Positions 4,371-35,805 of a stretch of DNA of 64,000 bases are shown in pieces. The position numbers and the translations under genes were made by a program. Under the pieces are notes generated by a model, which worked only from the letters and a program-made list of their open reading frames with translations, was not told where the DNA came from and did no database searches. This DNA is from Pseudidiomarina homiensis (GTDB taxonomy: Bacteria; Pseudomonadota; Gammaproteobacteria; Enterobacterales; Alteromonadaceae), in NCBI RefSeq assembly GCF_003987225.1, contig NZ_PIPX01000001.1, positions 496,001 through 560,000 of the forward strand, given 5' to 3'. Numbering within the stretch: position 1 is the first letter of the stretch; every line of letters starts with the position of its first letter.

Positions 4371-6027
4371 TTTCTTTGCGTAACCGATTTAAGGTAGACC
4401 CAGCCTCCAGAGCAATCCAGATTGCGGCGATCAGCACCAACAAGTCAAGACTGAATAAGAACCAGTCGGATGCCTCATAGAAGCCTTTAAGTTGAATGAT
4501 TAAGGCAAAAATAGTCATAATCAGCAGGAATATTAATGGCAACAACGTTACATACATTGGCCGTTTGAGTTTAACCAACATCGTTGTGATAACCAGCAGC
4601 GTTAGGCCAGCCAGTAGTTGGTTAGTGGTACCAAATAACGGCCAGATCGCTAGGCCACCAGAACCATCAGCACCACCTGCACCAAAGGCAAGCAATAAGC
4701 ATGAACCAACAGCGAGTAGGGTGGCTGGGGCCGCCTTTTCCATCCACTGAATATTATAAATAGAACCCCATTCTTGGAAGATATAGCGCTGTAAGCGTAA
4801 ACCGGTATCCATAGTGGTTCCCGCAAAAAGTACTGCCATTACGGTTAGCAACGTTTCCGCAATACCAACGTTAAAGCCAAGGCCTTCTTGCAGAATACGT
4901 GCGCCGCCAGATACAAACGCGGTAACCCCGCCTTGACCAAAGCTATGATAGACCGCTTGCCAATCGGCGAGAGTTGCAAAGCCAGCGGTGACTGCAATGA
5001 TGGTGGCCAACGATAACGAGCCTTCACCAATTGCACCGAAGTAGCCAACAAAACGCGCATCAGTTTCTTTATCGAGTTGCTTCGAAGTCGTTCCCGATGC
5101 GACCAAACCATGAAAGCCAGAAATTGCGCCACAAGCAATGGTAACGAACAATAACGGGATCAGTGACGGAGTGCCCTCAGGAGTGTCTGAGTTGAACGCC
5201 GGCGCTACCAACTCAGGTCCACTAATCAAGACTGCGCCATAAATTAGAATCAGGCCAATGAATAATTGTAGGCCGTTAATGTAATCGCGAGGCTGCAACA
5301 ACATCCACACTGGCAACAATGAAGCAATAGCGGCGTACAAGAAGAGGATAAGAATCCACGTTGCATTATCTGATAACCCCATTATCGTCTCGGGCAATGC
5401 GAGTGGTGCTTCAGGGCCAGCTACGATTAAAGCATAAAGGGCGATGACACCAAGTATCGAGACGGTACCTAGGTTGAGCCATTTGCGGAAAATAAATTGA
5501 CCAATAATGAGTGCGACAAAAATAGCGCCCCAAACCGGAACGACCGAACTCGGAAAATTAATCAGTAACCCAGAAATAGCTGTAGCGAATACGGCATTGA
5601 CCATCAGCAATACCAAGAAAATGACAATCATAAATAAGGACTGCGAACGTTTACCTACCACGTCGCCAGTCAACGCACCGATTGAACGTGCGCGGTTGCG
5701 ATTCGACGCCCAAATAGCTCCAGCGTCATGTACGCCCGCGAAAAAGATAGTACCGAAAATTACCCATAAAAACGCTGGTACCCAGCCCCAAATCACCGCG
5801 ATAGCAGGGCCAATAATGGGTGCCGCGCCCGCAACAGAGGTAAAGTGGTGTCCCCAAAGAACGTATTTGTTGGTGGGAACAAAGTCGACGCCGTCTTCAA
5901 ACTCATGGGCTGGAGTGCGAAAATTCGGATCGAGCTTATAGATCTTTTCGGCTACAAATTTGGAGTAAAAGACATAACCGAGAAACATACCGCCTAAACC
6001 GAGTAACATCAGTAAAATAGCGTTCAT
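4351..6027 (-). CDS. Short CstA-family carbon-starvation carrier
   Basis: This 558-residue polytopic inner-membrane protein has the CstA signatures: HHFTSVAGAAPIIGPAIA near residue 60, FAGVHDAGA near 97, the SGFHGLVASGTTSKQL region mid-protein and FGTTNQLLAGLTLL late. CstA relatives import pyruvate or peptides during carbon limitation. It is shorter than the roughly 700-residue E. coli CstA, as in a separate branch of the family. An AAAGGTG ribosome-binding site precedes the ATG. It heads a three-gene overlapping cassette with the CC-protein and the ArsA-like ATPase. The substrate is inferred only from the family. Confidence 0.9.
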   Translation of the reverse strand: MNAILLMLLGLGGMFLGYVFYSKFVAEKIYKLDPNFRTPAHEFEDGVDFVPTNKYVLWGHHFTSVAGAAPIIGPAIAVIWGWVPAFLWVIFGTIFFAGVHDAGAIWASNRNRARSIGALTGDVVGKRSQSLFMIVIFLVLLMVNAVFATAISGLLINFPSSVVPVWGAIFVALIIGQFIFRKWLNLGTVSILGVIALYALIVAGPEAPLALPETIMGLSDNATWILILFLYAAIASLLPVWMLLQPRDYINGLQLFIGLILIYGAVLISGPELVAPAFNSDTPEGTPSLIPLLFVTIACGAISGFHGLVASGTTSKQLDKETDARFVGYFGAIGEGSLSLATIIAVTAGFATLADWQAVYHSFGQGGVTAFVSGGARILQEGLGFNVGIAETLLTVMAVLFAGTTMDTGLRLQRYIFQEWGSIYNIQWMEKAAPATLLAVGSCLLLAFGAGGADGSGGLAIWPLFGTTNQLLAGLTLLVITTMLVKLKRPMYVTLLPLIFLLIMTIFALIIQLKGFYEASDWFLFSLDLLVLIAAIWIALEAGSTLNRLRKENANSSH

Positions 6028-32289: not shown

Positions 32290-32331
32290 CGCACCGACAT
32301 GGGGTTGGTGCGCTAACCGAAATTGTTCGGT
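32290..32331 (+). promoter_or_regulatory. Two hairpins in the uvrY leader
   Basis: Hairpin 1 pairs GCACCGAC (32291-32298) with GTTGGTGC (32304-32311) with one G-T pair and loop ATGGG, plus a flanking C-G. Hairpin 2 pairs ACCGAA (32316-32321) with TTCGGT (32326-32331) around ATTG. They end 20 bases before the start codon and just before the AAGGAAG ribosome-binding site, so they could affect translation. Confidence 0.5.
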
Positions 32332-32351
32332 GTCTTCATAAGGAAGCGAAG

Positions 32352-33044
32352 ATGACAGAGTTCATCGTAGCTGTACCCTCACAGTTGGTGGGGTTAGGCA
32401 TGGAAACATTAATCAACCAAGAGCCTAAATTTTCAGTAGTTGCAACCGTAAACAACCAACAACAATTACGCGACGCAATCGCTCGCGCTCCGTTCGCCAC
32501 GGTCATCCTTGGCAGTCAATTATGCAGCGACGGTACTATTGAAGTCTGGCGTCGTATTCAGCGCCGCTATCCAGATGTTCATATGCTACTCTGGGCGGCA
32601 CGATTTCAAGACGTACTTGATTTTCAGTGTAATCTCGAACGTGTCGAGGGGTATTTACTTGCAAGTGCGCAAAAAGATGAGTTTTTGAACGCTTGTCATA
32701 TGCTGAGTAAAGGACGTATGTATGTGGCCGCAAGTGTTGCCGAGTATTTAGCGAAAAACCCAGCGCGACAACGGCAGGGCGAACTGCTAGCTAAATTAAG
32801 TAAGCGTGAAATTCAAGTCGCACAAATGATAGCGCAAGGACGTCGTTCCACAGCAATTGGGCAGCTGCTTAATATAAGTAGTAAAACAGTGAATACCTTT
32901 CGCTACCGAATTTTTGATAAACTCGGGATTAGTGGTGATGTTGAGCTGACGCATTTAGCGTTGCAAATGAAATTGGTAGATCTTGATGACGAGGTAGCAG
33001 TACAAGACGATGACGAAACAAGCGAAGGAGGCGTTCGACGCTAA
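32352..33044 (+). CDS. uvrY: UvrY/GacA ortholog with degenerate receiver domain
   Basis: The 230-residue protein ends in an intact LuxR/GerE helix-turn-helix (about 147-212: LSKREIQVAQMIAQG, SSKTVNTFRYRIFDKLGISGDVELTHLA) closely like E. coli UvrY, and lies in the conserved uvrY-uvrC-pgsA-tRNA order. UvrY/GacA normally receives phosphate from BarA/GacS and switches on CsrB/RsmY-type small RNAs. Here the receiver has lost its active site: the N-terminal Asp pair reads Val8-Pro9, the phospho-acceptor position reads Gly54 (VILGSQ), and neither the Thr/Ser nor the Lys switch residue is seen (LLWAAR, GYLLAS). It thus cannot be phosphorylated in the usual way. Its end overlaps uvrC by 35 bases. Confidence 0.85.
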   Translation: MTEFIVAVPSQLVGLGMETLINQEPKFSVVATVNNQQQLRDAIARAPFATVILGSQLCSDGTIEVWRRIQRRYPDVHMLLWAARFQDVLDFQCNLERVEGYLLASAQKDEFLNACHMLSKGRMYVAASVAEYLAKNPARQRQGELLAKLSKREIQVAQMIAQGRRSTAIGQLLNISSKTVNTFRYRIFDKLGISGDVELTHLALQMKLVDLDDEVAVQDDDETSEGGVRR

Positions 33045-34884
33045 GCGATTTCTACAAAGTCTGACGCATCAGCCCGGGGTGTACCGGATGTATGATGCGT
33101 CAGGCGACATTATTTACGTGGGTAAGGCGAAAGACCTGCGTAAACGTGTGGGCAGCTATTTCCGTAGCCAAGTGGACAGCCCGAAGACGCAAACGCTCGT
33201 CAAGCAAATCTGCACTATCGAAGTCACCGTAACCAATACCGAAGCTGAAGCGCTGATCCTCGAGAACAATTTCATTAAGAAATACCGACCGCGCTACAAC
33301 GTACTGTTACGTGATGATAAATCCTATCCATATATTCTCGTCAGCGATCATCAGCATCCACGTTTAGCGTTTCACCGTGGTACGCGCCGCGAAAAAGGCC
33401 GTTATTTTGGACCATTCCCAAATGGTGTTGCAGTGCGCAATAGTCTGCGTCTGTTACAAAAACTTTTTCCCGTGCGCCAATGCGAAGACTCTTACTACCG
33501 CGCGCGCAGTCGACCTTGTTTGCAATACCAACTCAAGCGCTGCTTGGCACCTTGCGTAAAAGGCTACTGCAGCGATGATGAATATAACGAGCAAGTAGAG
33601 CTCGCCAAACGCTTTTTAGAAGGCAAGAACCAGGAGGTCATTGAGCAACTGGTGGGCAAAATGGAACAATCGAGTGCAGCGTTAGATTTTGAACGCGCAG
33701 CGCGTTTTCGTGATCAAATAGGCGCCTTACGCCAAGTCCAGGAACGCAATGCAGTGACCGGCAATCAACAAGAGCTTGATGTCATTGGTTATGCACGCCA
33801 AGGTGGAATTGCCGCTGTTCATTTGTTATTTGTCCGCGATGGCGCAGTGCAGGGCAGCCGTAGCTATTTTCCGAAGGTTCCAGCGAACACTGAAGATGCG
33901 GAAGTGCTACTGGCATTCTTGCTGCAGTTTTACTTGAATGATCAAGTGGAACGACGCTTGCCACGTGAGATTATCTTACCCGAGCAAAATGCCGCCAACG
34001 TACTTGATCCGGAACAAGAATTGAAAGCACTTGAACAGGCCTTGGCGCAGAAAATTCGCATGACACATAACGTCCGAGGCGAACGTAAACAATATCAGGT
34101 ACTAGCACAAAAGAATGCAATGAACGCGCTCGATAGCAAAGCGAATCAAGCGAGTACTATGATGATGCGGGTTCGTGCCTTGGAGCAAGAGCTCGACTTT
34201 GGGCGTCCTATCACGCGTATGGAATGCTTTGATATTAGCCACACGATGGGACAGGAAACTGTGGCGTCGTGTGTGGTGTTTGACCAGCAAGGCCCGAAAA
34301 AAAGTGACTACCGACGTTACAATATTAAAGGCATTACGCCGGGTGATGATTATGCCGCGATGGCGCAAGCATTGCAGCGTCGCTTTGATCCACTCAAGCA
34401 CGGTAAAGTTGATGCGGCACCGATGCCGGATATTTTGTTTATTGATGGCGGCAAAGGGCAGTTAAGTCAGGCGGAAGATTATTTTGCCGACTGGCCGACT
34501 GAATCGGCAAAAGCTGCGCCTTTACTCGTTGGTGTCGCAAAAGGGGAGTCGCGTAAACCAGGCCTAGAGACGCTTATCTTGGCTGGTAGCCATGCGACTA
34601 TTCCGTTGGCTGCTGATGCGCCTGCATTGCATTTGGTGCAGCACATTCGTGATGAATCGCACCGATTTGCTATTACCGGTCACCGGCAGCGCCGTGCGAA
34701 AGTCCGTCGCACTTCGCGCCTAGAGGATATTCCAGGTATTGGTGCCAAGCGCCGACAACGTTTATTGCAAAATCTAGGTGGATTACAACAGGTAAAACAG
34801 GCTAGTATTGAGCAACTCGCAGCGGTACCTGGCGTCAGCCACGAATTAGCTGAAACCATCTATCACGCGTTTCGTGACGAATAA
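33010..34884 (+). CDS. uvrC: Excinuclease ABC subunit C
   Basis: The 624-residue nuclease makes both incisions in nucleotide-excision repair. It has a GIY-YIG domain (residues about 18-95, QPGVYRMYD, IIYVGKAKDLRKRV), a Cys-rich segment (CEDSYYRARSRPCLQYQLKRC), a UVR UvrB-binding motif near 205-240, the RNase H-like second nuclease domain (ITRMECFDISH, FIDGGKGQL) and C-terminal helix-hairpin-helix repeats (LEDIPGIGAKRRQRLL). It starts 35 bases inside uvrY, so the two are co-translated. Confidence 0.97.
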   Translation: MTKQAKEAFDAKRFLQSLTHQPGVYRMYDASGDIIYVGKAKDLRKRVGSYFRSQVDSPKTQTLVKQICTIEVTVTNTEAEALILENNFIKKYRPRYNVLLRDDKSYPYILVSDHQHPRLAFHRGTRREKGRYFGPFPNGVAVRNSLRLLQKLFPVRQCEDSYYRARSRPCLQYQLKRCLAPCVKGYCSDDEYNEQVELAKRFLEGKNQEVIEQLVGKMEQSSAALDFERAARFRDQIGALRQVQERNAVTGNQQELDVIGYARQGGIAAVHLLFVRDGAVQGSRSYFPKVPANTEDAEVLLAFLLQFYLNDQVERRLPREIILPEQNAANVLDPEQELKALEQALAQKIRMTHNVRGERKQYQVLAQKNAMNALDSKANQASTMMMRVRALEQELDFGRPITRMECFDISHTMGQETVASCVVFDQQGPKKSDYRRYNIKGITPGDDYAAMAQALQRRFDPLKHGKVDAAPMPDILFIDGGKGQLSQAEDYFADWPTESAKAAPLLVGVAKGESRKPGLETLILAGSHATIPLAADAPALHLVQHIRDESHRFAITGHRQRRAKVRRTSRLEDIPGIGAKRRQRLLQNLGGLQQVKQASIEQLAAVPGVSHELAETIYHAFRDE

Positions 34885-34901: not shown

Positions 34902-35450
34902 ATGTGGAATATTCCCAACCTGCTGACCAGCTTTCGCATCCTACTGATCCCGGTATTTTTGGGCATTTACTATTTACCGGGCAGTGATGCTAACTTTTGG
35001 GCGGCGTTTGTCTTTGCTTTAGCGGCAGTTACCGACGGTTTAGACGGTTATATCGCAAGAAAATTTAATCAATTCACCAAGTTCGGTGCGTTTTTAGACC
35101 CAGTGGCCGATAAAGTCATGGTTGCCGCGTCGTTGATCGTTGTCGTTGAAACCTATGCAACTTGGTGGATCAGTGTGCCAGCGTTGGCGATTGTCAGCCG
35201 CGAGCTGGTGGTTTCTGCCTTACGCGAGTGGATGGCGCAAATTGGTTCACAAGCAAAAGTCCAAGTCTCGAATTTGGGAAAAATAAAAACTACCGCGCAA
35301 ATGGTCGCTATCGGTGGCCTCATTTGGGAAGCCAATACCTTTGTTATCGTTACTGCGACTATTTTGCTGTACGTCGCATTTGTGCTGACGTTGTGGTCAA
35401 TGTGGGAATATTTGCGCGCGGCTTGGTCAGATTTAAGCCAAGTGGATTAA
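34902..35450 (+). CDS. pgsA: Phosphatidylglycerophosphate synthase
   Basis: The 182-residue inner-membrane enzyme makes phosphatidylglycerophosphate from CDP-diacylglycerol and glycerol 3-phosphate. The full CDP-alcohol phosphotransferase motif is present: Asp45, Asp48-Gly49, Ala52-Arg53, Gly62, Asp66 and Asp70. Membrane helices flank it. It follows uvrC by 17 bases and precedes the tRNA cluster, as in E. coli. Confidence 0.96.
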   Translation: MWNIPNLLTSFRILLIPVFLGIYYLPGSDANFWAAFVFALAAVTDGLDGYIARKFNQFTKFGAFLDPVADKVMVAASLIVVVETYATWWISVPALAIVSRELVVSALREWMAQIGSQAKVQVSNLGKIKTTAQMVAIGGLIWEANTFVIVTATILLYVAFVLTLWSMWEYLRAAWSDLSQVD

Positions 35451-35529: not shown

Positions 35530-35605
35530 GCGGGAATAGCTCAGCTGGTAGAGCACAACCTTGCCAAGGTTGGGGTCGCGAGTTCGAATCTCGTTTCCCG
35601 CTCCA
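35530..35605 (+). tRNA. tRNA-Gly (anticodon GCC)
   Basis: A 76-base cloverleaf with acceptor GCGGGAA, anticodon arm CAACC-TTGCCAA-GGTTG, T arm with TTCGAAT and encoded CCA. First of three linked tRNA genes. Confidence 0.97.
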
Positions 35606-35614
35606 AATCCCGAT

Positions 35615-35688
35615 GGCGGGATGGCAGAATGGCTATGCAGCGGATTGCAAATCCGTGGATCTCGGTTCGACTCCGGGTCCCGCCTCCA
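35615..35688 (+). tRNA. tRNA-Cys (anticodon GCA)
   Basis: A 74-base cloverleaf with acceptor GGCGGGA, anticodon arm CGGAT-TGCAAA-TCCG region reading GCA, T arm with TTCGACT and encoded CCA. Confidence 0.97.
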
Positions 35689-35718: not shown

Positions 35719-35805
35719 GCCCGGGTGGTGAAATTGGTAGACACAAGGGATTTAAAATCCCTCGCTGGTAACAGCGTGCCGGTTCAAGTCCGGCCCCGGG
35801 CACCA
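35719..35805 (+). tRNA. tRNA-Leu (anticodon TAA)
   Basis: An 87-base class II cloverleaf with acceptor GCCCGGG, anticodon arm AGGGA-TTTAAAA-TCCCT, a variable arm (CGCTGGTAACAGCG) and encoded CCA. Order Gly-Cys-Leu matches the E. coli glyW-cysT-leuZ cluster. Confidence 0.97.

Follow-up and report, generated by a model that had tools for sequence, protein, structure and literature searches.

The uvrY locus and its altered receiver

We analysed a window of 64,000 nt from Pseudidiomarina homiensis, in which a 230-aa uvrY/GacA orthologue is encoded from an ATG start on the forward strand (32352..33044, +), as identified from its open reading frame, profile matches, alignment, synteny and a structure model. 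The protein combines a putative pseudo-receiver with a LuxR-type helix-turn-helix (HTH), and its nearest named relative is from Pseudidiomarina sp. CB1 (99% protein identity). On the same strand, uvrY is followed by uvrC (33010..34884, +), which overlaps it by 35 bp, then by pgsA (34902..35450, +) and the genes for tRNA-Gly (35530-35605, +), tRNA-Cys (35615-35688, +) and tRNA-Leu (35719-35805, +). Upstream of the start codon lies a Shine-Dalgarno motif, AAGGA (32340..32344, +), within ATAAGGAAGC, and 5′ of it a leader hairpin, CGCACCGAC-ATGGG-GTTGGTGCG (32290..32312, +), positioned directly 3′ of a likely promoter that was inferred by eye.

The DNA-binding half, a GerE/LuxR HTH at residues 148-203 (32793..32960, +; Pfam profile and alignment), scores 59.2 bits against a Pfam GerE cut-off of 23.5, while the Pfam Response_reg model reaches 14.3 bits against a cut-off of 30.2, leaving a sub-threshold receiver trace. 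The top NCBIfam model for the whole protein is the UvrY/SirA/GacA equivalog PRK09483, whose cut-off of 280 bits it misses at 122 bits; in a genome search with the same model the window gene scored 121.7 bits, and of 14 control genomes just one exceeded the cut-off. When the protein was aligned with 22 canonical orthologues taken from other Alteromonadaceae genera (GTDB sense), substitutions were seen at all five receiver active-site positions: Val8-Pro9 stand at the acidic pair (32373..32378, +), Gly54 at the phospho-acceptor Asp (32511..32513, +), Ala82 at the conserved Thr/Ser (32595..32597, +) and Ala104 at the conserved Lys (32661..32663, +). A sequence-only reading of this DNA had named the same Val-Pro and Gly replacements and the missing Thr and Lys, all of which the alignment confirms, and a conserved Asp aligned at the acceptor site, which would have contradicted it, was not found in the window protein.

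To place these replacements within the family, species genomes were scanned, which yielded 61 loci, of which 57 belong to Idiomarinaceae after four Methylococcaceae loci were set aside. Across the resulting 58 Idiomarinaceae sequences (the window and 57 public loci), the acidic pair and the Lys are absent in every case, and a Thr or Ser is retained in only five. The acceptor Asp is missing from all 41 Pseudidiomarina and Idiomarina sequences; it is kept in eight of the 58, every one within a 17-row Aliidiomarina clade, seven being read from the alignment and one (L111, whose start had previously been missed) judged by eye. Since 57 further loci have neither the acidic pair nor the Lys, the receiver loss is neither a sequencing error nor a one-off. 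The scan pattern, KT[VI]NTFRY, is biased towards the Idiomarinaceae clade and canonical copies may have escaped it; this bias is guarded against by a search of 98 family genomes (E ≤ 1e-15), which gave exactly one match in each of seven Idiomarinaceae genomes (three Pseudidiomarina, two Idiomarina and two Aliidiomarina, genera inferred), all seven degenerate. A match was also obtained in 89 of the 91 remaining genomes, and the 27 whole receivers read there (the 22 alignment references and five more) were all canonical. For Pseudidiomarina and Idiomarina, we conclude with high confidence that Asp phosphorylation has been lost.

Several loci outside this pattern are recorded here as separate observations. 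Two of the 98 genomes (G013 and G073) lack a UvrY match at E ≤ 1e-15, though other genomes of their genera have one. In another Alteromonadaceae genome (L054 of G012, about 4480-5121) uvrY has a canonical receiver followed by a frameshift before the HTH, either a mutation or an assembly error. In the four Methylococcaceae loci (L097, L110, L113 and L114) the recognition helix is KTVNTFRYR, the receivers are canonical and the fetched DNA contains no uvrC.

Orthology and timing of the loss

The low UvrY-model score raises the question of whether the gene is UvrY at all, as opposed to a paralogue that took its place beside uvrC, and a paralogue elsewhere in the genome does outscore it slightly (128 versus 122 bits). 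The synteny speaks against such a replacement, with uvrC directly 3′ of uvrY in the window, in all 57 Idiomarinaceae loci and in all 22 reference orthologues. So does the recognition helix: the window protein carries the UvrY-type SxKTVN[ST][YF]RYR, and all 80 Idiomarinaceae and canonical UvrY sequences have the same HTH residues K178, T179, N181, R184, Y185 and R186, whereas the helix differs in five LuxR-type paralogues of the same genome. In a tree of DNA-binding domains, those five paralogues form a separate clade (96/94), although the branch uniting all UvrY is weak (74/56) and rests on few columns. A replacement is, for these reasons, very improbable. The two other good UvrY-model matches in the genome (128 and 111 bits) both have intact receivers, have no uvrC within 1.5 kb on either side, and in one case adjoin a HisKA_3 kinase; given this neighbour, the missing uvrC and the separate clade, we regard them as paralogues, and no second, canonical UvrY, which would have overturned the earlier proposal, was found. 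We take the window gene to be the UvrY/GacA regulator that Idiomarinaceae received by vertical descent; its orthology, named in the sequence-only reading, is borne out by synteny and the shared recognition helix.

The same reading had proposed tracing on a tree where the Asp residues were lost. On a quick, midpoint-rooted uvrC tree, the 58 Idiomarinaceae rows form one clade (SH-aLRT 100), the acidic-pair loss is a single change, and the state of the acceptor Asp requires four changes when L111 is coded as lacking it. As far as these sequences place it, the receiver loss goes back to the base of a single family, Idiomarinaceae, and is common to the whole family as sampled.

Constraint, fold and a rebuilt receiver stretch

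Whether the degenerate receiver is decaying can be judged from substitution rates. In 21 of 22 close pairs receiver dN/dS lies between 0.016 and 0.12, the remaining pair giving 0.163 with a dS of 0.07, and HTH dN/dS lies between 0 and 0.07; the pairs are non-independent, and dS is in many cases high or saturated; saturated dS was set to 2, so that the ratios there are bounds. The gene is under purifying selection, not decay, in accordance with the earlier remark that it is not a pseudogene. At the same time the receiver is at least 15 points less identical than the HTH in six of 13 Idiomarinaceae pairs, compared with one of 11 canonical pairs (not matched for divergence), so relaxed constraint may explain part of the change. 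For the window against L068 the identities are 53% for the receiver and 68% for the HTH, and against L084 they are 42% and 61%.

The proposal to model the receiver was followed with AlphaFold2, which, from a 45-row alignment, predicted five strands and five helices in receiver order with a mean pLDDT of 88 and receiver blocks at 91-98. The best structural matches in the PDB are NarL-family regulators such as RcsB, LiaR and VraR, and one match (3cz5) aligns 136 residues at 2.0 Å with a Z of 19.4. In the available text of a 2025 review, a pseudo-receiver (PsR/ALR) is a receiver-like fold without key catalytic residues (PMC12632262), and this is what the model predicts for the window protein.

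A rebuilt stretch, residues 62-93 (32535..32630, +), spans α3-β4-α4, with helix and strand positions taken from the AlphaFold2 model. Thirteen positions in it are new by alignment (T62, W66, R67, R68, R72, W81, Q86, D87, L89, D90, F91, Q92 and C93), each of them shared by 39-41 of the 41 Pseudidiomarina and Idiomarina sequences, whereas 0-8 of the 22 canonical sequences have it. These residues look like a remade interaction face, and since that face is near-invariant we would prefer a partner or ligand to pure dosage as the basis of control. From this motif only R67, W81 and D90 are common in Aliidiomarina (13, 16 and 13 of 17), and since the motif is mostly absent there, the three genera may not share one switch. 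A redox switch through Cys93 is no more than a possibility: 39 of the 41 Pseudidiomarina and Idiomarina sequences have this residue, but none of the 17 from Aliidiomarina does.

The upstream kinase, the Csr output and the control of the regulator

UvrY/SirA/GacA activates CsrB-type RNA through an 18-bp inverted repeat, here called the GacA box, and the sequence-only reading had suggested searching the genome for barA/gacS, csrA and CsrB-like RNAs. CsrA was found, as one copy in the genome itself and in all six Idiomarinaceae stretches examined; a full-length BarA and a CsrB-like RNA were not found in the genome. With the eight best candidates scored per genome, the BarA model exceeds its cut-off in 52 of the 98 genomes of the family and in none of the seven Idiomarinaceae. 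Loss of BarA alone would be unremarkable, since 39 genomes outside Idiomarinaceae also have no match over the cut-off and all 16 of their UvrY receivers that were read are canonical. Where barA is present in two relatives (G022 and G008) it adjoins rlmD and relA, and no barA was seen within 1.5 kb of rlmD in the genome itself or in five other Idiomarinaceae (six of seven listings).

A hybrid kinase of HisKA-HATPase-REC-REC-Hpt architecture has been kept close to gshA in all six Idiomarinaceae genomes for which this stretch was retrieved, its domains having been scanned in three of the six; in the genome of the window it lies near gshA and csrA (L137, 9451-11520; G000:C1). The top NCBIfam model for this copy, the one on which the model was run, is BarA at 535 of 890 bits, followed by TorS at 450, and the match covers the core of the BarA model (residues 278-904) with no sCache_4 sensor. 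We did not accept it as BarA: in a genome that has a true BarA (G035), other hybrid kinases also reach 517 bits, the core is 36% identical to BarA of G022, and the gene lies away from the rlmD locus. It may be a reshaped descendant of BarA or a substitute for it. The Pseudidiomarina copies (689-727 aa) have a shorter N terminus than those of Idiomarina and Aliidiomarina (868-911 aa), where this end includes a PAS-like part. A second type of hybrid kinase, with a 7TMR-DISM sensor, adjoins parC in G004, and like kinases occupy like places in G055 and G014 (domains and parC judged by eye). A search for this parC-linked kinase in the seven Idiomarinaceae found, among the matches listed, the kinase and receiver core alone. 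In G006 the match of a 341-aa open frame (C1:337503-338330) to the parC-linked kinase is confined to the receiver-Hpt end, which gives the impression of a phosphorelay tail with a gene of its own.

On the output side, the CsrB covariance model (E ≤ 0.1) found matches in 28 of 98 family genomes and in none of the seven Idiomarinaceae, though 63 of the other 91 genomes were negative too. Laxer filters returned nothing in the genome itself or in the other two Pseudidiomarina, and in four of the seven Idiomarinaceae the hits had E-values no better than 0.13, a level at which five of 14 controls also match at E ≤ 5 without CsrB, E. coli included. Two genomes with canonical UvrY (G006 and G090) are CsrB-negative even with these filters. 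Among the CsrB loci of relatives, 19 of 20 carry a box-like repeat of at least 10 of 12 positions in the fetched 3.3 kb (a count made without a shuffled control), and in 14 loci read closely a GGA-dense RNA, at 16-22 GGA per 250 nt, begins about 190-420 nt 3′ of the box. An AGGA-triplet pattern that matches all 20 control CsrB loci, anywhere in the locus (19 of the 20 Rfam-matched loci, with L119 left out, plus L199), occurs at 14 places in the genome, none of which exceeds 10 GGA per 250 nt, compared with 16-25 in the 20 controls. Reading this pattern backwards gives an uninformative control, because AGGA is identical backwards. The strict GacA box was absent from the genome and from 62 of 97 others, and a looser box was also absent from the genome, with single or double matches in G070, G028 and G059. 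The isolated box-like matches in G059, G028, G070 and G010 were rejected, having at most six GGA per 250 nt downstream, compared with 16-22 at 14 control boxes. A CsrB is likely absent from the genome, and RNAs of another shape would escape the search because the controls were picked by their likeness to CsrB. The sequence-only reading had suggested that the phosphorelay would have to be rewired; on evidence weaker than that for the receiver, the BarA-CsrB arm looks dismantled and not merely rewired.

Taken together, these data suggest that UvrY/GacA of Idiomarinaceae has turned into a phosphorylation-independent pseudo-receiver transcription factor. The protein would bind DNA without phosphorylation, probably as a dimer; csrB would no longer be a target, and the regulator would be detached from both BarA and CsrB. 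A partner or ligand at the rebuilt α3-β4-α4 face would set its activity, changes in the amount of the protein itself being the next likeliest control. That the protein is a working regulator seems very probable. For the nature of the switch we lean towards a partner or ligand rather than amount, and the whole reading, a phosphorylation-independent pseudo-receiver that has left csrB and is switched at the rebuilt face, is on balance the one we favour, though with only modest confidence.

Control by amount is a tentative alternative with some evidence of its own: a constitutively active protein would be regulated through its synthesis alone, possibly by CsrA at the Shine-Dalgarno and by the leader hairpin. 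At 9-10 of 10 positions, the CsrA consensus is matched by the uvrY Shine-Dalgarno in nine of 57 loci and by none of 436 other gene starts from these loci, four loci (L095, L096, L100 and L103, of the Aliidiomarina clade, two near-identical) carrying the perfect 10-base consensus. CsrA binding to the varA (uvrY) mRNA is described for Vibrio cholerae in the available text of PMC6550530. A hairpin of at least seven Watson-Crick pairs occurs at the corresponding place in 23 of 26 Pseudidiomarina with differing stem sequences, as against 58 of 570 shuffles of all 57 upstream regions, and could perhaps be a 5′-end mRNA stabiliser or a protein site; its loop is often ATGG(G). However, eight of the nine strong sites fall in the Aliidiomarina clade and the window scores seven of 10, the comparison was post hoc over non-independent species with 221 of the 436 background starts having no qualifying GGA, the Pseudidiomarina loops contain no GGA, and the new near-invariant receiver motif is left unexplained. 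The hairpin and the CsrA-like sites lend weak support to control by amount. If synthesis were controlled through CsrA, the protein would reflect CsrA activity rather than determine it. Autoregulation is not claimed, the best GacA-box scores 5′ of uvrY being about those of shuffled sequence (8.4 versus 8.3 in Pseudidiomarina, 8.1 versus 8.1 in Idiomarina and 8.7 versus 8.2 in Aliidiomarina).

Two further explanations would keep the phosphate or dispense with the protein. Residual phosphorylation, either of some other residue or, weakly, of the acceptor Asp that some Aliidiomarina retain, could draw on the eight of 17 Aliidiomarina-clade sequences that have this residue and on the hybrid kinase near gshA that is nearest to BarA; with the acidic pair and Lys gone throughout the family and the acceptor gone from Pseudidiomarina and Idiomarina, we consider it unlikely. 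Retention of uvrY chiefly as a cis element for uvrC, supplying a promoter or translational coupling while the protein is nearly idle, would account for the constant neighbour and the 35 bp overlap, but it leaves unexplained why both domains are under strong amino-acid constraint, why the recognition helix does not vary and why the new receiver residues are near-invariant. Moreover, the overlap seems not to be general, as in the Aliidiomarina clade the uvrC match (not its start codon) begins some 50-180 nt past the uvrY stop, and this explanation is scarcely credible.

The favoured reading, a pseudo-receiver switched by a partner or ligand, can be set beside known systems. The protein is like UvrY/SirA/GacA/VarA of the BarA-UvrY and GacS-GacA systems in its uvrY-uvrC-pgsA locus, length, receiver and LuxR HTH, and recognition helix, but unlike them it has no acidic pair, acceptor Asp or Lys, and no full-length BarA, CsrB-like RNA or GacA box was found in its genome. 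Because the defining receiver chemistry is missing, we file it as a UvrY/GacA orthologue and not as a working GacA-type response regulator. In combining a degenerate receiver with a LuxR HTH it resembles CsgD and VpsT, NarL-family proteins of that same architecture. VpsT ranks 34th in the Foldseek list, with an E-value worse than those of LiaR, RcsB and EvgA; no CsgD-named entry stands among the 50 best matches listed per fold search, an absence that is uninformative according to the tool's own note. Control by c-di-GMP as in VpsT was rejected, as the VpsT motif W[FLM][TS]R occurs in none of the 58 Idiomarinaceae sequences. ChxR, HP1043, RedZ, JadR1, BldM and WhiI, to our knowledge not orthologous to UvrY, are alike in having lost the usual receiver chemistry; here, by contrast, it is known to which partner pathway the regulator ancestrally belonged, and its loss of this chemistry is placed at the base of a family. 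The available part of PMC12632262 names CsgD and VpsT among pseudo-receiver structures, and describes ChxR, HP1043, RedZ and JadR1 as regulators that are active in dimeric form or whose control lies with a ligand, a partner or their own amount. BldM and WhiI are given as atypical regulators in the available literature.

As a kind, pseudo-receiver regulators are already known, the acceptor Asp being missing in 2.0% of sampled receivers according to the same partial text of PMC12632262; what is new is that a whole family has one at a usually conserved global regulator. BarA/UvrY is called well conserved among gammaproteobacteria in the available text of PMC3171408. The main texts of PMC12632262 and PMC4395418 do not mention UvrY, GacA or Idiomarina, and the part of PMC1183210 available counts the signalling proteins of Idiomarina loihiensis with UvrY/GacA unnamed. 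Among the titles and abstract openings of the best matches listed, mostly from non-subscription literature, there was no prior report of receiver loss in Idiomarinaceae UvrY. Among the matches listed for Idiomarina, only a 2020 paper ties the genus to GacS/GacA, its available text giving both, together with LadS, as present (PMC7366521), and the receiver loss questions the working GacS/GacA pair inferred there.

Idiomarinaceae offer a natural experiment, in which CsrA and the regulator are kept while the phosphorylation chemistry is lost and the kinase and RNA output apparently are too. A more far-reaching possibility, which we think improbable, is that the whole family has an inverted Csr circuit, with BarA and the antagonist CsrB RNAs gone and a phosphorylation-free UvrY whose synthesis or activity would follow CsrA, or a new ligand sensed by the rebuilt receiver, in which case the former top of the cascade would now be its output. 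The family allows a test of how UvrY acts without phosphate, and also of how pseudo-receivers originate and switch, the latter being a mystery according to the available text of the 2025 review (PMC12632262).
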